Assembly: GCF_000019665.1 (NCBI RefSeq)
Contig: NC_010794.1
Coordinates: 1,984,001-2,048,000, forward strand
DNA length: 64,000 bases
Direction of reading: 5' to 3'
Source: Methylacidiphilum infernorum V4
GTDB lineage: Bacteria; Verrucomicrobiota; Verrucomicrobiia; Methylacidiphilales; Methylacidiphilaceae
The stretch's first letter is position 1; the number at the start of each line of letters is the position of its first letter. The notes under the pieces were generated by a model. It was not told the origin of the DNA. It worked only from the letters and a program-made list of their open reading frames with translations, and did no database searches. The translations under genes and the position numbers were made by a program. Positions 9,783-38,401 of this stretch are shown here, piece by piece.

Positions 9783-9860
9783 CTAGCAAGAAAACGAAAT
9801 CCCTGGCAATGGAGTTTGCCGTCCCGCCGGTTCGAAGTACTTGGGAAAACCTCCTTTCTT

Positions 9861-9888
9861 GAAAAGAAAGGCTGATAACTCCTACTTC
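9861..9888 (+). repeat. Leader motif of the efflux operon, copy 1
   Basis: The core GGCTGATAACTCCTACTTC is preceded by AAAGAAA. A near-identical copy (GGCTGATAGCTCCTACCTC, preceded by AAAGAA) occurs at 11788-11813. Both lie downstream of a predicted promoter and upstream of an efflux gene. The copy here is about 22-49 bases before the ATG of the outer-membrane factor. It could be an operator or RNA regulatory site; this is inference. Confidence 0.4.
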
Positions 9889-9909
9889 AACAACCTGGGA
9901 TGCAAACAG

Positions 9910-11667
9910 ATGAAATTCATACGAAGGGGCAAGCCAAAAAAAGTTATCCTCCTTCCCTTTTTGCACGGCCCTCCTCCCCTCCTTCTTCTTTTCTCCCCAT
10001 GGATTTTGGGCTCAACTTTTATTAGCCTCGTGGGCTGTTCGGTCGGTCCCGATTACAAGCCTCCCAAGCTCGAGGTTCCCCAAAACTGGAAATGGGGAGA
10101 ACAAAAACCCGATCCCAAAGGCTCCCATTCCAGGGAAAAGCCGCAAATCGAAGAGAAAAAAACAGCCTGGGGAGGCAATGACCTGCAAGGCGAAGAAAAT
10201 ATAAAAAGAGCGATTGAAGAAGCCAGGAAAAACCCGGGAAAGTGGAAGTTGGCTGCCCCCAAGGATTTCGTCAAAAAAGGGCAGTGGTGGAAGATCTTCA
10301 ACGATCCGGTCCTTGATCAACTCGAAGCCGAGGCCGAAGTAGCAAACCAACAGATTAAAATGGCAATGGCCAACGTCATTGAAGCCCGTGCAGGAGTAGG
10401 AGCGGCCTTAAGTGCTTTTTTCCCCCATACCAATTTCACTCCCAGCTACCAGCGCTGGAAACTCAAAACCCATCTTCCCTGGCTTCCTTTCATTTTGCCT
10501 GAACCTATTTTTTCCACCGTTCCCTTGCTGGGCCAGAATGGCATCCCTATCCCTTCGGGCTCCATCATCGGATCGACCCAATACTATGGTTTTCAGCCTA
10601 CCCTGAACATGTGGCAGGTCTACCTTAACTCCAACTGGGAACTCGACATATGGGGGAAATTAAGAAGGCAGCTCGAAGCGGCCAAGGCCGAGGCTCAAGC
10701 TTCGCAAGCCGAACTGGAAGGAATGAAACTGACGATCCATGCCGACGTGGCCCAGGCTTATTACCTGTTGCGATATATCGACAGCCAGCTCGAAGTCATG
10801 GAGCGGATGATCCATGTTTACGAAGACAACCTGAAAAGAGTTGAAATTCGGTTCAAAAGCGGGCTATCCAACGAGTTGGATCTAGCCAGGGCAAAAACCG
10901 ATCTTTCCCGGATAAAAGCACAGTATATAGCCCTGGAAAGCCATAGGGCGAAAGTAGAAAACTCCATTGCCCGGCTCCTGGGCCAACCCGCTTCAACCTT
11001 CCATTTTCCAAGGAAACCCCTTAAAGAAGATCCTCCTCATGTTCCCCAAAGTCTACCCTCGGACATTTTAGAGCAAAGGCCGGATATAGCCCAGGCTGAA
11101 AGGGAAATGGCGGCGACCAACGCCATGATCGGGGTAGCCTATGCCGCTTATTTTCCCTCGGTCAATCTCAATGCTTATTTTGGTTTTTTCAATACCGACT
11201 TTGGCCAGCTCTTTACCTGGCCTTCCAATTCATGGATTTATGGACCTTTAATCGATCTGCCGATTTTTGAAGGCGGCCGATTATTGGCCAACTTGATGCA
11301 GGCCCGGGCGGCGTATGAAAAAGCGGTTGCTTCCTATAGAGAAACCATTCTTTCGGCGTTTGAAGAAGTAGAAAATGCTTTAATAGGCATGCGGTTGCTG
11401 GAAGAAGAGCAAAAAGTCGAAGACGAAGTGGTAGCCTCCGCAAAAAAACAGTATGACCTGGCCCTAGACAGGTTTCAAAGAGGTCTTTCCCATTACATCG
11501 AAGTCGATACCACCGAAAGCGTCTGGCTTAATGCCATACTTACGGATATCGCCTTGCGCGGGGAAAGATTCATCGTCAGGATTGCCCTCATTCGAGCCTT
11601 TGGTGGAGGATGGGCGGACAGTTCAATGAAAAAACCATCCTTCCAACAAAACCAGTCCAAAAACTGA
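9910..11667 (+). CDS. Outer-membrane efflux lipoprotein, TolC/NodT (OprM) family
   Basis: About 585 residues from the ATG at 9910 (MKFIRRGKPKK). A TTG 69 bases upstream is less likely. A basic N-terminus and hydrophobic run end in a lipobox (ISLVGC), then the family start CSVGPDYKPP. A charged 70-residue insert precedes GQWWKIFNDPVLDQLEAEAE, the usual OEP block. Two alternating TolC repeats follow, including QRPDIAQAEREM and FPSVNLNAYFGFF. The protein forms the outer-membrane exit duct of a tripartite pump. It is followed by an EmrB-type MFS pump and an EmrA-type adaptor, so it almost certainly serves them. It is a paralogue of the gene at 46966-48612. Confidence 0.88.
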   Translation: MKFIRRGKPKKVILLPFLHGPPPLLLLFSPWILGSTFISLVGCSVGPDYKPPKLEVPQNWKWGEQKPDPKGSHSREKPQIEEKKTAWGGNDLQGEENIKRAIEEARKNPGKWKLAAPKDFVKKGQWWKIFNDPVLDQLEAEAEVANQQIKMAMANVIEARAGVGAALSAFFPHTNFTPSYQRWKLKTHLPWLPFILPEPIFSTVPLLGQNGIPIPSGSIIGSTQYYGFQPTLNMWQVYLNSNWELDIWGKLRRQLEAAKAEAQASQAELEGMKLTIHADVAQAYYLLRYIDSQLEVMERMIHVYEDNLKRVEIRFKSGLSNELDLARAKTDLSRIKAQYIALESHRAKVENSIARLLGQPASTFHFPRKPLKEDPPHVPQSLPSDILEQRPDIAQAEREMAATNAMIGVAYAAYFPSVNLNAYFGFFNTDFGQLFTWPSNSWIYGPLIDLPIFEGGRLLANLMQARAAYEKAVASYRETILSAFEEVENALIGMRLLEEEQKVEDEVVASAKKQYDLALDRFQRGLSHYIEVDTTESVWLNAILTDIALRGERFIVRIALIRAFGGGWADSSMKKPSFQQNQSKN

Positions 11668-11727: not shown

Positions 11728-11787
11728 AAAAACAGCTTACTCTTATTGGGCGATGGGGCTCGCCGACCGTTAACCGCCGTTCTTTTC

Positions 11788-11813
11788 AAAGAAGGCTGAT
11801 AGCTCCTACCTCT
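11788..11813 (+). repeat. Leader motif of the efflux operon, copy 2
   Basis: Matches copy 1 at 9861-9888 with about three differences over 25 bases (core GGCTGATAGCTCCTACCTC). It lies roughly 60 bases downstream of the predicted promoter at 11699. A weaker relative, GGCTGACAGCTGCT, is at 55997-56010 before the response regulator. Confidence 0.4.
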
Positions 11814-11932
11814 AAACTAAAAAAAACAATGAGAATGGGGCGGAAAACGGTCAACTTTAGAATCAATTTCAACTCCTTCTTTTTTTTCTTTTCCTTGTTC
11901 CAAGGGAAAGGGCTGGGTTTTAGCCACCGGCA

Positions 11933-13456
11933 ATGAATAATTCCCCTAAACTTTTTCTTCTTTTCAGCCTCTATTTTATCCTCCAGTGTTTCTGTTTTTT
12001 TCAATCCGGCTCCTATACCGACATCATTCCCTATGCCACGGCTGAACTGGGACAAAGCCAAAGCCATGGAGCATGGACCAATGGATTTTTCTTCCTGGGG
12101 CAAGGTCTCGGACTGTTGATGGCCACCCCTCTTAGCCTTCGCTACGGAAGAAAAAAAACGGTCCTTTTCTTTTCTTCTTTTCTTGCGGCCAGCAGCCTTT
12201 TCTGCGCATGGGCCCCTGATTTCTACCTATTTTTGGGAGGACGATTCCTGCAAGGCCTCAGTTGTGGCCTGCTGATCATCAACTCTCAAAGCCTCATGTT
12301 TGAAAATACCCCTGATCCATGGAGGGTATTTCCCTTGATGCTCGGGGCCGTGGCCAGCGTTCTTCCTTTTACGATCGGGCCCTCCCTCGGCGGCTATGGC
12401 AAAGAGTATTGGGGAAGGGAAGCAAGCAGTTGGAGATATTGGTTCTATGGAACTGCCCTTCTCTTTGTCATCCTTAGCTTTCTTTTCCACATCCTGTTTA
12501 AAGAAACCGAAGCGGTTGCAAAAAAGAAGCCCTGGGATTGGGCAGGATTTATCCTTCTTTTTCTAAGCCTGGGCGCTGCACAAACGATTTTCAACATGGG
12601 GGATGATTACGAGTGGTTTATTTCTCCGATTATCAAGTTTTTATTCCTGTTGGGGATCGGTTGTCTTCTGAGTCTTTTTGTCGTGGAATTGAACCGGAAA
12701 AACCCTTTTATCCCGGTTCGGCTTTTTTTAAGAAAAAATTTTTTTATCGGCTCCCTATGCTTAACGGTTGGCTTTCTCTTTTTTTACGGCCTATGGACAA
12801 CGCTCCTTGTCCGGCTTCAAAACCAAAACCTTTTCCCTCCTCACCGGGCGGGAACCCTTTTTGTGGGCATGGCCCTGTTTTCTACCCCAATCTCTTTCCT
12901 CCTTCCCAGGCTTGCGGGGAAAATGAGAAGTCCTCTCTATGCTTTCATCGTATTCGTTCTCCTGGGTGTTCTATACACCTGGATGGGATATTTCGACTTC
13001 TACCAGAAAAGGTGGTTTTGGATGCAGTCCCCCTTGATTTTTGTTATCCAGGGAATCGCCTTAGGCCTTTTTTTTATTCCCCTGACAAACCTGATCATTT
13101 CAGGCCTTTGCCCTAAAAACCAACTCCAGGCCATTGAACTTTCCAGCAGCATGCGGATCATCGGCCAGGGCTGGGCTTCCCCGATCATCGGTACGATCCT
13201 CTACCACCGGATCGTCTTTCACAAGATGCGCCTGGATGAATGGTTGCATGCCGGCCATCCCTACTTGATGGAGTATTATTCAAAGTTCAAAGAGCAAGGA
13301 ATCGGTAGAGAAATAGCTTTAAAAATTCTCGATCAATCCGCCCTCTCTCACGCCTTTATCCTGAGCCTCAACGACGCCTTTCGATTTTGCGGAATCGGTT
13401 TCCTTGTTTTATCCGGAGTAATCCTATTGGCCAAAGAACGACGAGATCAAATCTAG
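11933..13456 (+). CDS. emrB: MFS drug/proton antiporter, DHA2 (EmrB/QacA) family
   Basis: 507 residues with about 14 hydrophobic helices, the size and topology of DHA2 exporters. Between helices 2 and 3 is the MFS motif A equivalent (PLSLRYGRKKTVLF), followed by the motif B region GGRFLQGLSCGLLIINSQS. The long C-terminal loop before the last helix (YYSKFKEQGIGREIALKILD) is typical of EmrB. It would export hydrophobic drugs or other small molecules across the inner membrane using the proton gradient, an advantage in an acidic habitat (inference). Its stop is 1 base before the adaptor gene, so the pair is translationally linked. The substrate cannot be predicted. Confidence 0.88.
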   Translation: MNNSPKLFLLFSLYFILQCFCFFQSGSYTDIIPYATAELGQSQSHGAWTNGFFFLGQGLGLLMATPLSLRYGRKKTVLFFSSFLAASSLFCAWAPDFYLFLGGRFLQGLSCGLLIINSQSLMFENTPDPWRVFPLMLGAVASVLPFTIGPSLGGYGKEYWGREASSWRYWFYGTALLFVILSFLFHILFKETEAVAKKKPWDWAGFILLFLSLGAAQTIFNMGDDYEWFISPIIKFLFLLGIGCLLSLFVVELNRKNPFIPVRLFLRKNFFIGSLCLTVGFLFFYGLWTTLLVRLQNQNLFPPHRAGTLFVGMALFSTPISFLLPRLAGKMRSPLYAFIVFVLLGVLYTWMGYFDFYQKRWFWMQSPLIFVIQGIALGLFFIPLTNLIISGLCPKNQLQAIELSSSMRIIGQGWASPIIGTILYHRIVFHKMRLDEWLHAGHPYLMEYYSKFKEQGIGREIALKILDQSALSHAFILSLNDAFRFCGIGFLVLSGVILLAKERRDQI

Positions 13457-13457
13457 C

Positions 13458-14816
13458 ATGAAAATGCCGGGAAATGAGAAAAAAAGAAACATTTTTTTTT
13501 CTTTCCTTCTTGGGAACAAAGAAAGGATAAGAAATAAGGGGAGTTTCCAGCGCCTATTCCAAGTCCTATGGCGCTCTTGGAAAAGGGATCTTTTTTCTTT
13601 TGCTTTCAATAAATACCGCCCTTTTTTAGTTTTTTTCCTGATCCTTTGCCTTGTTGCCCTATGGTGGTTTTTCTTTACCGGCCGCTGGGTTGCAACCAAC
13701 GATGCCTACGTGACGGGTAATGTCATTCCCGTCAAGGCCCAGACATCAGGAAGGGTAGTAGAGGTTCTCGTCGAATCCACCCAGTTTGTCCAAAAAAACC
13801 AACTACTCGTCCGGTTGGATTCACTCAAACAACAGGTCGCCTTTGAAAGCGCCCAACACAACCTGGCCATGGCGGTGCGCAGGGTGGAAGATCTCTTCAA
13901 TAAAGCTAGATCCCTCCGCCATAAAATAGCGGCACAAAAAGCGATCCTGGGCCGACAGCGTTACGACCTCGGACTTTATTCCTCGGGAAGCAAAGCGGGG
14001 GTCGTTTCCGTTCAAGATGCCGTGGATGCACAATGGAAAGTGGCGGAAATCGAATCGACGATCAGGCAACTCGAAGATGAACTGCGATCAACGGAGGCTT
14101 GGATCCAGAAAACGACGATTTGGGACAACCCGATTGTGCTTAAGGCTGCCGTGGAACTTAAAGATGCCTACCTGGCCTTGTACCGGTGCCAGATCGTAGC
14201 TCCAGTAGCCGGTTACATAGCCAGGAGATCTGTCCAGGTTGGAGATGAAGTAAGCCCCGAAAAGTTGCTCATGTCCGTGGTCCCCTTGGACTATTACTGG
14301 GTGGTAGCCAATTACAGGGAAACAGAGCTGAGAAGGATCAGGCCCGGTCAACCGGTTAAAATAAGAGCGGACATCTACGGGCGGCATTACCTCTACCATG
14401 GAATAGTCGAAGGGATCGAGCCGGGTTCAGGAACCGTTTTTTCCCTTTTACCCCCGGACAACGCCACGGGCAACTACATTCACGTTGTCGAAAGGGTGCC
14501 TGTAAGAATAAAACTCGATCCCACAGAACTGCGCAAACATCCCCTGAGGCTTGGCTTATCGGTTGTAACCAAGGTCAACGTATCCTACCAAGGGCAGTCG
14601 GTTCTCAAACCGCTGACGGAAATTCCGCCCGAAGCCAAGAAAACCGATTACAGCTCTCCCTATTTTACCGAAGAACTCGCAGGGGTAGATCATTTAATCA
14701 AGTCGATCATTGAACAAAACCGCTATTCTCAAGACCAAGCTGAAAACCCAAACCAAGCCGAAAATTCTTTGAGTCAAAAACAACAGGAAATTTTTCCTTC
14801 CCCACCCTCCAACTGA
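13458..14816 (+). CDS. emrA: HlyD/EmrA-family membrane fusion (adaptor) protein
   Basis: 452 residues. One membrane helix lies near residues 53-72 (FLVFFLILCLVALWWFFFTG), after a long basic cytoplasmic start. Then comes the barrel-sandwich half motif RWVATNDAYVTGNVIPVKAQ, a coiled-coil hairpin (residues about 130-215), and the second lipoyl half YRCQIVAPVAGYIARRSVQVG. The beta-barrel region contains YYWVVANYRETELRRIRPGQ. This is the periplasmic bridge between the EmrB-type pump and the TolC-like duct. A Gln/Asn/Ser-rich tail ends the protein. Together with 9910 and 11933 it completes a tripartite exporter. Confidence 0.9.
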   Translation: MKMPGNEKKRNIFFSFLLGNKERIRNKGSFQRLFQVLWRSWKRDLFSFAFNKYRPFLVFFLILCLVALWWFFFTGRWVATNDAYVTGNVIPVKAQTSGRVVEVLVESTQFVQKNQLLVRLDSLKQQVAFESAQHNLAMAVRRVEDLFNKARSLRHKIAAQKAILGRQRYDLGLYSSGSKAGVVSVQDAVDAQWKVAEIESTIRQLEDELRSTEAWIQKTTIWDNPIVLKAAVELKDAYLALYRCQIVAPVAGYIARRSVQVGDEVSPEKLLMSVVPLDYYWVVANYRETELRRIRPGQPVKIRADIYGRHYLYHGIVEGIEPGSGTVFSLLPPDNATGNYIHVVERVPVRIKLDPTELRKHPLRLGLSVVTKVNVSYQGQSVLKPLTEIPPEAKKTDYSSPYFTEELAGVDHLIKSIIEQNRYSQDQAENPNQAENSLSQKQQEIFPSPPSN

Positions 14817-28886: not shown

Positions 28887-29186
28887 ATGGCAAACGAAGA
28901 AAAAAAAAGATTTAATAAAGCGAGTCTTGTGGAAGTCGTCCAAAAAAATATGGGGAAAGACACCACCAAGGCCTTGGCTGAAAAATCCGTGGATGCCGTC
29001 ATTAACGGCCTAAAGACCGGAGTACTGAAAAACGGGATTGTCCAGTTAATCGGTTTTGGGACATTCCGTGTCATTACAAGAAAAGCAAGAATGGGGGTCA
29101 ATCCTAAAACGGGAGAAAAAATCAAAATCAAGGCTTCCAAAACCGTGCGTTTTTCTCCGGGCAAAGAATTAAAAGAAAAGTTATAA
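28887..29186 (+). CDS. HU-family nucleoid DNA-binding protein
   Basis: 99 residues. HU/IHF proteins bend DNA and compact the nucleoid. After a charged start (MANEEKKRFNKASLVEVVQK) it has the helical part with AEKSVDAVINGLKTGVLKNG. Next is the beta-arm IQLIGFGTFRVITRKARMGV in the form VQLIGFGTF, with NPKTGEKIKIKASKTVRFSP, the DNA-contacting arm (consensus RxGRNPxTG, here RMGVNPKTG). The end is GKELKEKL. The AAAGGAG ribosome-binding site is 6 bases before the ATG. It is preceded by an operator-like palindrome and followed by a structured RNA/terminator at 29233-29380. Confidence 0.94.
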   Translation: MANEEKKRFNKASLVEVVQKNMGKDTTKALAEKSVDAVINGLKTGVLKNGIVQLIGFGTFRVITRKARMGVNPKTGEKIKIKASKTVRFSPGKELKEKL

Positions 29187-29232
29187 CCTTTTTCTGAAAG
29201 CGGGAATCGTTATTCAACCGGTAAGGCAAAAA

Positions 29233-29380
29233 AGGGGGATGGATATCCATACAATAGTAAGTAATTACTTATTTCCTATTTAATATCATTGAGCTAGCAG
29301 CTTATAGATAAACTTTTATCATTATGAAATTATGAAATCTGCCGGCTTTAGTCCGGCAGCCATCCCCCTCTCTCTTTTTT
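29233..29380 (+). ncRNA. Candidate structured RNA or long terminator downstream of HU
   Basis: AGGGGGATGG at 29233-29242 pairs perfectly with CCATCCCCCT at 29360-29369, closing a domain of about 137 nt. Inside are hairpins CTGCCGG/CCGGCAG (29339-29359, loop CTTTAGT), GATAAA/TTTATC (29307-29320) and the palindrome TAAGTAATTACTTA (about 29258-29271). The right arm is followed within a few bases by TCTCTTTTTT. It could be the 3' end of the HU mRNA, an independent small RNA, or both. Not matched to a known family. Confidence 0.45.
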
Positions 29381-30029
29381 CACGGAGGGTTATCGTCTTT
29401 CTTTTTTAACTTTTTTAGTTATTCTAGCACACGGGACGACATATCGTAGAATAATTAATATTATTAATAATGTTGGGTGAGATTTTATAATTCACTTCAT
29501 TAAAGGGGGCACGACAGCAGGCTTGGGTTATAGTTTTATTAAAGGATTAAACCTTGGGTTTCCCAGGCCGGTTTTTCATTGGAAAAGGGAAGGACCAGCA
29601 TAGCGGCTGTTCCTTATCCGATCACCGAAGTGGGCTAGAAAAAAATCAACCTAAGGGCTTGTTTGCCGGCGTTCGCTAAGCAAGCTTTTATAAGAAAAAA
29701 TCTAAACAAGCTTTTTTTCTCTTTTACCTCGAGATTGGATTGCGATAGGGCCTGGGTAGAACCGCTCTTACCCAATAGGCTTCTTTCCAAGGCCTAGAGG
29801 CTTTGTAAGGTCTTCTCTTTTAGCACTTCCATGGAACCTATTGAGCCTTTATCGTGCAAGGAGTAGTCTTCGCTTCTTTTTTTATCCATGCGGGGGAAAA
29901 AAATCCCCAACTTGACATGGTTTATACCGTTTTGCCGATGCTAAGAAAAAGGCTAGAGACGATTTCTCCCGGAATAGAACGGAAGAATTTTTCTCCTGCT
30001 CAATGGGATGGTCGCCCACGCTTTGAAGC
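29381..30029. other. Intergenic stretch between HU and the groEL terminator
   Basis: About 650 bases with no gene I would support. Coding-looking frames are short, and one overlaps the groEL terminator. An A/T-rich part (29440-29495, with TTAATATTATTAATAATG) could hold a promoter or a protein-binding site. Otherwise nothing recognised. Confidence 0.35.
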
Positions 30030-30063
30030 AAAAAAACAAGCCAGGAAAAATTTCCTGGCTTGT
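30030..30063 (-). terminator. Rho-independent terminator of the dnaK-groES-groEL cluster
   Basis: A 13-base perfect stem (ACAAGCCAGGAAA at 30036-30048 with TTTCCTGGCTTGT at 30051-30063). On the minus strand it is followed by seven T. It lies 23 bases beyond the groEL stop. This is the clearest terminator in the window. Confidence 0.85.
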
Positions 30064-30085: not shown

Positions 30086-31720
30086 TCAATATTCCATGTC
30101 TCCCATTCCTCCCGCACCCGCAGGCGTGGCCGGTTTCTTTTCCTTTTCAGGAATTTCTGTGACCATGGCCTCGGTTGTCAGGAGCAAACCGGCGATGGAA
30201 GCTGCATTCTCAAGGGCCGTCCTCGTTACCTTCGTCGGATCCACGATGCCGGCTTCGAACATGTCCACGTAGGAACGTTTCGCAACGTCAAAGCCTTCGT
30301 TCCCTTTCTTGGCTTTCACCTCGTTGACGATGACGCTTCCCTCAAGTCCAGCATTATCGGCAAGAGTTTTCAGAGGGTATTCTAAAGCCTTATAAACGAT
30401 ATTGGCTCCAATCTGCTCATCTCCTTTTAGAGAAAGCCCCTCGATGGCTTTCTGGCAACGCAGGAGAGCCACTCCACCACCGGGAACGATACCCTCTTCA
30501 ACAGCGGCTCTCGTTGCATGCAGGGCATCCTCAACCCTGGCTTTCTTCTCCTTGAGCTCGGTTTCTGTAGCCGCACCCACGTGTATAACGGCAACTCCAC
30601 CGGCTAACTTGGCGAGCCTTTCCTGGAGTTTTTCACGATCGTAATCAGAAGTCGTTTCTTCGATCTGTCTTCTGATCTGGTTAATTCTCCCTTGGATCTC
30701 GCTTCTTGATCCCGAGCCTTCGATAATCGTCGTATTTTCTTTCTCCACGATTATCCTCTTTGCCCTACCCAGGTCTTCAAGCTGAACGTTTTCCAGCTTT
30801 ATGCCCAGGTCTTCGGTCAAGCAACGGCCTCCCGTTAAAATAGCGATATCCTCGAGCATCGCCTTGCGCCTGTCCCCGAAGCCAGGGGCTTTAACGGCAC
30901 AAACTTGCAGTGTCCCCCTTAACTTGTTCACCACAAGCGTAGCCAAGGCTTCGCCTTCTACATCCTCGGCAATAATCAGCAAGGGCCTGCCCGCCTTGGC
31001 AATTTTTTCAAGCAGGGGCAAAAGATCCTTCAGGTTGGAGATCTTTTTCTCATGGATCAGGATGTAGGCATTCTCCAACACCGCCTCTAGCTCTTCGGCA
31101 TTCGTTACAAAGTAGGGTGAAATATAACCCCTGTCGAACTGCATTCCTTCAACCACTTCAAGAGTCGTTTCTATGTGCTTGGCTTCTTCAACCGTTACCG
31201 TCCCATCTTTACCTACTTTATCCAGGGCATCGGCAATAATCTCTCCGATCGAAGTATCCCAATTAGCGGAAACGGTCGCCACCTGCTTGATTTCCTCTTT
31301 CCCTTTTACAATGTGGGATATTTCTTTAAGCTGTTTGACAACGGCTTGAACTGCCTTGTCAACCCCCCGCTTAAGATCCATGGGGTTAGCGCCTGCCGTG
31401 ACGTTCTTTAATCCCTCCTTGTAGATGGATTCAGCAAGAACGGTGGCCGTCGTTGTTCCATCCCCGGCAACGTCACTTGTTTTCGAGGCCACCTCTTTTA
31501 CAAGCTGTGCCCCCATATTTTCCCACGGATCTTCCAATTCAACTTCTTTAGCTACGGTTACCCCATCCTTAGTGATCGTTGGAGAACCAAATTTCTTGTC
31601 GAGAATCACGTTACGTCCTGCAGGTCCAAGCGTGCACTTTACCGCCTTGCTTAACTTCTCAACACCACGCAACAAGGCATGCCTTGCAGATTCATCAAAA
31701 ATCAGTTGTTTAGCAGCCAT
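30086..31720 (-). CDS. groL: Chaperonin GroEL (60 kDa)
   Basis: 544 residues, standard length. GroEL forms a 14-subunit double ring that folds proteins with GroES and ATP. The ATP-binding blocks are [20 protein letters not shown] and [20 protein letters not shown]. The hinge block is [20 protein letters not shown] in the form KNVTAGANP. The end part has [16 protein letters not shown] and the flexible C-terminal Gly/Met tail ([10 protein letters not shown]). The start is an ATG with AGGAGG upstream, 17 bases after groES. It shares a transcript with groES and probably dnaK. No second GroEL seen here. Confidence 0.97.
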
Positions 31721-37161: not shown

Positions 37162-37517
37162 TGTCAACCACCCCCGACTGAATTCGGAGGCTTGCCTTAC
37201 GGCCATGCCTGGGTTGACAAGGAAAAGCGGTACCCAACCCGCTGCGTTGCAAGGAGTAGAGGAGACCCTCGTCGGGATGCTTCCTCAGTCCCGACCTCTA
37301 GAAGCCGGGGTTGCAGACAACCCTGAGAGCATGGGCGCTGGCGGGCTCCGGCAGACGGCCGACATGCAACATTCCCGAAGGGGAGACGCCCCGAAAGGGG
37401 TGCCTCAGTTGGCCCGCAAGGGCAAAAAAAAACGGCCACCCCAGAAGACCTGGGGGAGCTTTAACCAAAGGAGGACGCGCTTTCCTCCCCAGTCTGAATG
37501 CTGGGGTCTCAAGCGCG
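37162..37517 (+). ncRNA. GC-rich multi-hairpin RNA-like element, possibly a stand-alone HEARO/omega-RNA
   Basis: About 356 nt of much higher GC than its surroundings, holding at least ten stem-loops. TGTCAACC (37162-37169) pairs with GGTTGACA (37212-37219) and encloses CCGA/TCGG. AGCGG/CCGCT is at 37226-37243. TAGAG/CTCTA enclosing GTCGGGA/TCCCGAC is at 37257-37300. GGGTTG-CAGA-CAACCC is at 37308-37323. TCCC-GAAG-GGGA is at 37373-37384. CGCCCC-GAAA-GGGGTG is at 37387-37402 and GCCC-GCAA-GGGC at 37412-37423; these two have GNRA tetraloops. CCCCAG/CTGGGG occurs at 37439-37455 and again at 37487-37506. The last is nested in CGCGCTT (37476-37482)/AAGCGCG (37511-37517), which ends just before the ygfZ ribosome-binding site. 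I found no match to RNase P, tmRNA, SRP RNA or common riboswitches. The class is inference. Confidence 0.55.
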
Positions 37518-37525
37518 GAAAGGCG

Positions 37526-38401
37526 ATGAACGAAAAAAAACTCTATGAAAGCTTGGTCCAAGGGAATCCCGGATGGTGTGAGCTTTCCGGTCAAGCGATT
37601 TGGAGAATCTCGGGAAGGGATAGGATCAAGTATCTCAATGGGCAACTCCCGGCGGATATCGCTTCTCTGCCCCCAGGCTGCGCGCTGCAAACGGCGGCAC
37701 TCAACCGCAAGGGAAGAATGGATTGCGAACTCTGGATAGCCCATCATCCCGAGTTCCTCTTTGTAGACTGCCCAAAAGAGATTGAAGAAGCAACGGAAAA
37801 GCGGCTAACAAGTTTTCTTGTAGCGGATAAAGTTACCATAGAGAAGCTCGGCGGCCAGTTTTATCTCTACCATTATTTCAGTCCCGATCCACCCAAGGGT
37901 TTCTCCTTTTGTTTCCAAAACAAAAGGTTTGGCATTCCCGGATGGGATGTCTGGTCGGAGAGGAGACTGGAAGACTTTGGCTGCCCAGAAGTTCCTCCTG
38001 GCGTGCAAGAAAGCCTGCGGCTCGAGAACATGATTCCCCGGTGGGGCAAGGAGTTAACCTCCAACACCCTGGCCTTGGAAGCTTTTTTATCCAAGGATTC
38101 CATAAGTTTTACAAAAGGCTGTTATGTGGGACAAGAAATTATATCCAGGATTCATCACATAGGTGAGATAAACCAGCTTTTAACTCTCCTTATCGCTTTA
38201 GATGAAAGCATACCCCAGCTCGGGCAACTTTACTATCAATCCCGGCCTGCAGGCCGACTCACCTCTAGCGGCTATTCATACGGCTACAATAAAGCCGTTG
38301 CCCTAGGCTATATCCGCAAAGAGTACAGGAAGGAACAAGGGATCGTTCAAATAGCCGGCCAGTCCCTGAAAATCCTCAAGGCTCCACCCCCTATTGGCTA
38401 G
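37526..38401 (+). CDS. ygfZ: YgfZ/CAF17-family folate-binding protein
   Basis: 291 residues from the ATG at 37526 (MNEKKLYESLVQ), with GGAAAGG 4 bases upstream. A longer upstream frame runs through the GC-rich RNA element and is not coding. The family helps iron-sulfur cluster assembly using tetrahydrofolate and is related to GcvT. The signature is FTKGCYVGQEIISRIHHIGE (the KGCYxGQE motif, with the functional cysteine). The early block RDRIKYLNGQLPADIASLPP and NRKGRMDCELWI (GcvT-like sheet) agree. Expression is probably affected by the structured segment directly in front. It ends 20 bases from the convergent 38422 gene, with an AATAGT/ACTATT hairpin between them. Confidence 0.85.
   Translation: MNEKKLYESLVQGNPGWCELSGQAIWRISGRDRIKYLNGQLPADIASLPPGCALQTAALNRKGRMDCELWIAHHPEFLFVDCPKEIEEATEKRLTSFLVADKVTIEKLGGQFYLYHYFSPDPPKGFSFCFQNKRFGIPGWDVWSERRLEDFGCPEVPPGVQESLRLENMIPRWGKELTSNTLALEAFLSKDSISFTKGCYVGQEIISRIHHIGEINQLLTLLIALDESIPQLGQLYYQSRPAGRLTSSGYSYGYNKAVALGYIRKEYRKEQGIVQIAGQSLKILKAPPPIG

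Follow-up and report, generated by a model that had tools for sequence, protein, structure and literature searches.

What is the function of the long, closed structure that lies directly behind hup, the gene of an HU-family DNA-binding protein, in Methylacidiphilum infernorum V4? The locus falls within a window of 64,000 nt, comprising bases 1984001-2048000 of the single-contig genome (2,287,145 bp). The initial annotation of this window described a domain enclosed by a 10-bp outer helix, containing several hairpins and ending in a U-tract, and proposed an independent or 3'-UTR-derived small RNA, with the remark that a plain terminator has no need of such a long-range helix. Judged by sequence comparison, the domain is a conserved RNA structure that is specific to the genus and new to Rfam 15. 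The explanation we prefer, with slightly better than even confidence, is a Methylacidiphilum-specific structured domain in the 3'-UTR of the hup mRNA, the long-range helix of which would serve both as the stem of the terminator and as a seal of the 3' end. The elements of the domain are collected in Table 1.

Table 1. Positions in the window of hup and of the structural elements of the domain that follows it.
Feature	Position	Strand	Remarks
hup, HU-family DNA-binding protein, 99 aa	28887-29186	+	Open reading frame list and homologues
Spacer from hup stop codon to domain, 46 nt	29187-29232	+	40-42 nt in relatives
P1 5' arm, AGGGGGATGG	29233-29242	+	Pairs 6-10 covary in ungapped register
P2, hairpin motif AGTAAGTAATTACT	29256-29269	+	AGTAAGYAWWTACT in 5/5 genomes
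P3, hairpin GATAA-NNNN-TTATC	29307-29320	+	Stem invariant, loop variable, 5/5 genomes
P4, G+C-rich hairpin CTGCCGG CTTTAGT CCGGCAG, directly before 3' arm	29339-29359	+	
P1 3' arm, CCATCCCCCT	29360-29369	+	Complementary to 5' arm
Pyrimidine/T-rich tract after P1, CTCTCTTTTTT, terminator-like	29370-29380	+	7-9 T in 12 bases, 5/5 genomes

HU is present in all five genomes of the genus that were compared, namely that of the window (G000) and four others (G001, G002, G003 and G004), whose proteins are 96-98% identical to the window's. The next gene after hup is groEL, which is convergent and ends at 30086; a strong groEL hairpin terminator (ACAAGCCAGGAAAAATTTCCTGGCTTGT) occupies 30036-30063, and G002 bears a similar one. 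Between the domain and this terminator lie approximately 650 nt of non-coding DNA (29381-30035), in a genome given as 91% coding in an extract of PMC2474590, and apart from the groEL terminator the gap does not resemble its counterpart in G002. At the G003 locus (L025, reverse strand), unrelated DNA starts about 40 nt behind the domain, with hup and the domain intact.

The 10-bp helix reported earlier across about 117 bases stands: its arms are perfectly complementary, lie 117 nt apart and enclose 137 nt overall, and the U-tract placed at the end of the domain does follow P1 directly. The minimum free energy of 29233-29380 is -44.6 kcal/mol, compared to -27.2 +/- 3.22 for shuffled sequences (z -5.40; 0/200 as stable), the 137-nt core reaches a z of -5.50 (0/300 as stable), and none of 512 background segments of that length, 256 taken from each strand of the window and each compared with 30 shuffles, had a z of -5 or lower. 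The bare helix is near chance for 64 kb, as perfect 10-bp helices with a G+C of at least 7 and a span of 80-180 nt occur at two places in the window (four counts over both strands) and shuffled sequence yields a mean of 2.2 counts. If 7 or more of the 12 bases that follow the 3' arm must in addition be T, a threshold picked after the sequence had been seen, the hup domain is the only such place in the window and 0/30 shuffles produce one. Directly behind the hup stop codon, the window offers no terminator candidate other than P1 with its T tract. Members of the genus grow at around 55-60 C, and at 60 C the pairing probability of P1 is 0.88-0.96 in each of the five genomes; on folding energy alone, the domain of G002 is the least convincing (z -2.21, with 11/300 shuffles as stable).

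The closed domain varies in length across the genus (137 nt in G000, 175 in G001, 150 in G002, 171 in G003 and 175 in G004), and so do the letters of P1. The arms read AGGGGAGGAT/ATCCTCCCCT in G001, G003 and G004, and GGGGGGGTGG/CCACCCCCTT in G002, where two of the pairs are G-U. In an ungapped register set by hand, on which this count rests, P1 pairs 6 to 10 (five of ten) change on both sides yet stay paired across three lineages, which is effectively the size of the sample since three of the five genomes are closely related. Swapping arms between G000 and G001, G003 or G004 leaves pairing at 6-7 of 10 positions, a loss of 3-4 pairs, and the 5' arm of G002 pairs with the 3' arm of G000 at all ten positions, eight of them Watson-Crick.

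When 93 kb of sequence are searched with R1, a covariance model trained on the closely related G001, G003 and G004, both the window (29.1 bits, E 5e-4) and G002 (41.3 bits, E 1.5e-6) are recovered, and a sequence-only model of the same three rows (R3) finds neither at E <= 10; a search of whole genomes with R1, which starts with a coarser pass, missed G000 and G002. The model-fitted alignment A4 leans towards structure by construction; 96.3% of its cells pair, 11 pairs carry changes on both sides compared to a shuffled mean of 4.0 (0/500 shuffles reach this number), and pairing falls to 39-54% once the partners are offset by 1-3 columns. The register of A4 for the window is 29231-29371, with three both-side changes in P1. 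The MAFFT alignments A1 and A2 place P1 out of register, with gaps in both arms, and RNAalifold run on A2 sees little covariation (term +3.32) because of that misplacement. A lack of conserved helices, which the initial annotation had named as an outcome that would speak against it, is thus not what is found, given the covariation of P1 and the R1 matches in relatives.

Inside P1, the motifs AGTAAGYAWWTACT and GATAANNNNTTATC occur in all five genomes while the surrounding letters change. The pairs of P3 never vary, and P3 therefore gives no evidence from covariation. The P4 hairpin of the window has a pairing probability of 0.99; a hairpin occupies this position in 4/5 genomes, with a sequence in G001, G003 and G004 that differs from the window's, and no P4 hairpin precedes the P1 3' arm in G002. 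For the window RNA at 37 C, the probabilities are 0.04 for P2 (AGUA...UACU) and 0.12 for P3 (GAUAA...UUAUC), the inner A+U-rich part having competing folds, and the A+U-rich hairpins of the minimum-energy structure overlap the conserved P2 and P3 only partly. Of the inner hairpins described at the outset, then, CTGCCGG/CCGGCAG is robust, whereas the A+U-rich ones coincide only in part with the conserved set. The folds predicted at 60 C for G001 and G002 reduce to P1, the P2-region and P3 hairpins, together with P4 in G001.

In all five genomes a gap of 40-46 nt separates the stop codon of hup from the domain, which is always on the same side of the gene. Beyond it, G000 and G002 alone have groEL in the 1.1-1.5 kb that follow, and groEL is not close downstream in the other three; the downstream non-coding DNA of G000, G002 and G004 shows no mutual alignment, and the sequences of G003 and G004 part some 250 nt beyond the hup stop codon. 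As hup and the domain are kept while the downstream DNA differs, the conserved unit is hup plus the domain. A covariance model from all five rows (R2) recovers the hup-linked domain in 5/5 genus genomes, its further matches being the reverse strand of the hup-linked place and one of chance level in G000 (E 9.6). R2 has no match in the other 8 genomes of the family nor, when 60 genomes of the order were searched under stricter filters, in the 55 from outside the genus. No homologue of the domain was seen after hup in sister genera: two Methylacidimicrobium loci (L030 and L031) carry, by eye, an ordinary hairpin followed by T-rich DNA, and 6 of 13 loci from outside the genus have some long-range helix, but among those listed none is followed by 12 bases with 7 or more T, in a scan whose strict helix rule also missed G002.

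Rfam 15 holds no match over the domain at the gathering threshold; at E <= 10, the interval 29150-29450 returns only RsaOG (15 bits versus 50) and snoF1_F2 (12.3 versus 60), and loci L022-L025 gave nothing near gathering. The domain also goes unmentioned in the titles and abstract openings of literature on Methylacidiphilum small RNA, noncoding RNA and Rho-independent termination. 6S RNA (RF00013) is alike in its long-range closing helix and its length of about 140-190 nt, but the hup domain is branched and without a 6S match, and this identity was rejected: the sole match in G000 (C1:2103430-2103605, minus strand) is below cut-off and away from the domain, and 6S matches lie elsewhere in 4/5 genus genomes, one of them over the cut-off. 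A repeat or mobile element was dismissed for want of a second genomic copy at useful E-values. As a transcription-factor palindrome, GATAANNNNTTATC occurs at 6 places in 2.29 Mb compared to about 4 hand-estimated from base composition, a closeness that leaves no sign of a regulon. A small protein is contradicted by stops in all three frames of spacer and domain in 5/5 genomes, and no peptide common to all lineages was seen there.

Other structured RNAs are located elsewhere in the window. A HEARO RNA (RF02033, 96.5 bits) lies at 37163-37390 (+) with no adjoining HNH/IscB-like open reading frame of at least 150 aa, and is overlapped by a frame at 37205-38401 (+) that looks, by eye, like a YgfZ/GcvT-type folate-binding protein. 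Two fluoride riboswitches are found at 9796-9891 and 11740-11815 (+). By eye, the first precedes an outer-membrane-efflux-like frame (9841-11667) whose listed TTG start falls inside the riboswitch, and the second precedes an MFS-like frame (11933-13456) and then an HlyD-like one (13458-14816); efflux pumps under the control of fluoride would make uncommon partners for such a riboswitch.

Folding energy does not pick the strand of the hup domain, the minus strand being better by z-score in 4/5 genomes; two features speak for the plus strand, its co-orientation with hup and, in 5/5 genomes, the T-rich tract behind P1. The hexamer that overlaps the end of hup at its stop codon is TATAAT in G001, G003 and G004, TATAAC in G000 and TGTAAT in G002; the succession of a Leu codon and a stop (TTA TAA) accounts for TATAAT in part. 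Promoters were assessed by consensus score only, and on this measure the window has no sigma-70-like site of at least 9/12 immediately before the domain. The signs of a promoter of the domain's own are weak, with no consistent sigma-70-like site and TATAAT in only 3/5 genomes. Neither Hfq nor ProQ was matched by family searches in any of the 5 genus genomes, although the controls were detected. Hence the first reading is upheld in part: the domain is structured, conserved and linked to HU, and is no chance helix, whereas an independent small RNA is a conjecture, the promoter not being conserved and Hfq and ProQ going unmatched. The contrast that it drew with a plain terminator may be a false one, given that a T-rich tract follows P1 in every genome.

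The closing helix may itself be the hup terminator. Under this explanation, RNA polymerase transcribing from the hup promoter would read past the stop codon into the domain, where P2, P3 and usually P4 would draw the distant arms of P1 together. The 10-bp, G+C-rich P1 would thereby form right before the U-rich tract, as the stem of an unusual intrinsic terminator at which transcription would end, and would then protect the 3' end of the HU message from 3' exonucleases at about 60 C, with the possible release of a stable RNA of 140-180 nt. Intrinsic terminators share with the domain a G+C-rich helix followed by a U-rich tract just past the stop codon, a combination seen in 5/5 genomes. They have short loops, however, whereas the stem halves of the hup domain are 117-155 nt apart and enclose several motif-bearing hairpins; there is no compact short-loop hairpin, and a consensus terminator scan (loop 3-8) passes the domain over. 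The formation of a terminator whose stem halves are separated by more than 100 nt would take long, and this counts against the explanation, as do the interrupted T-tracts of G001 and G003, the missing P4 of G002 and the strand-neutral folding energy.

A tentative alternative, of appreciably lower probability, is a small RNA acting in trans, either cleaved off the hup mRNA at its 3' end or transcribed from a promoter inside hup. Here P1 would seal the molecule, the conserved inner loops would be its working surface, and the output of HU would be linked to other mRNAs or to a protein. A plain terminator needs neither of the two motifs conserved inside P1, and the domain combines conservation beyond a terminator with linkage to a parental gene, as is expected of 3'-UTR-derived small RNAs. 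TATAAT over the stop codon of three genomes points the same way, but is not retained in G000 or G002; the lack of Hfq and ProQ matches also weighs against a small RNA, and pairing between the domain interior and the hup start region was rejected, with 98-182 of 200 shuffles as strong. The nearest parallel is RaiZ, a 3'-UTR-derived small RNA from raiA that represses hupA, according to an extract of PMC9438474. As far as that extract goes, RaiZ-type RNAs are alike in being structured, conserved sequence right after a coding gene with a terminator-like end, but hupA is a target of RaiZ, whereas hup would be the source gene of the present domain, which belongs to a genus without an Hfq or ProQ match.

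A bolder proposal, and an unlikely one, is that of a genus-restricted branched RNA family arising from the hup 3' end and abundant because HU is, which would bind HU or another partner through its AGUAAGYAWWUACU and GAUAA/UUAUC hairpins and thereby couple HU synthesis to nucleoid organisation in thermoacidophiles without detected Hfq or ProQ. HU prefers branched and cruciform nucleic acids, and it may bind to its own message at the branched domain, or to a cruciform in the DNA, and so tune its own expression or nucleoid structure. This we regard as more doubtful still. The strict linkage to hup in 5/5 genomes while downstream DNA changes would suit such an element, as would the preference of HU for cruciform DNA, but no domain was found after hup in the other family genomes. 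In E. coli, naRNA4 is likewise a structured RNA connected with HU; as described in an extract of PMC6907758, it is encoded by a REP repeat, not by hup, and works with HU by interaction, whereas the hup domain is tied to HU by gene linkage only. Least probable of all is a DNA-level element (a bidirectional terminator, cruciform or mobile-element remnant), for although both strands fold about equally well and, in the window, P1 is followed by T-rich sequence on the reverse strand too (TTTTTGCCTTAC), no such tail is seen in the spacers of G001, G003 and G004, these three genomes have no groEL close downstream, the domain keeps to one side of hup, and the genome shows no second copy at useful E-values.

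The reach of the hup domain is modest, as it is found in one genus only. If expressed, it would represent either a long-range-helix terminator that doubles as an RNA domain or an Hfq-independent 3'-UTR RNA. In either case, a conserved structure unmatched in Rfam 15 would end the message of a major nucleoid protein, in a genus with no detected Hfq or ProQ.
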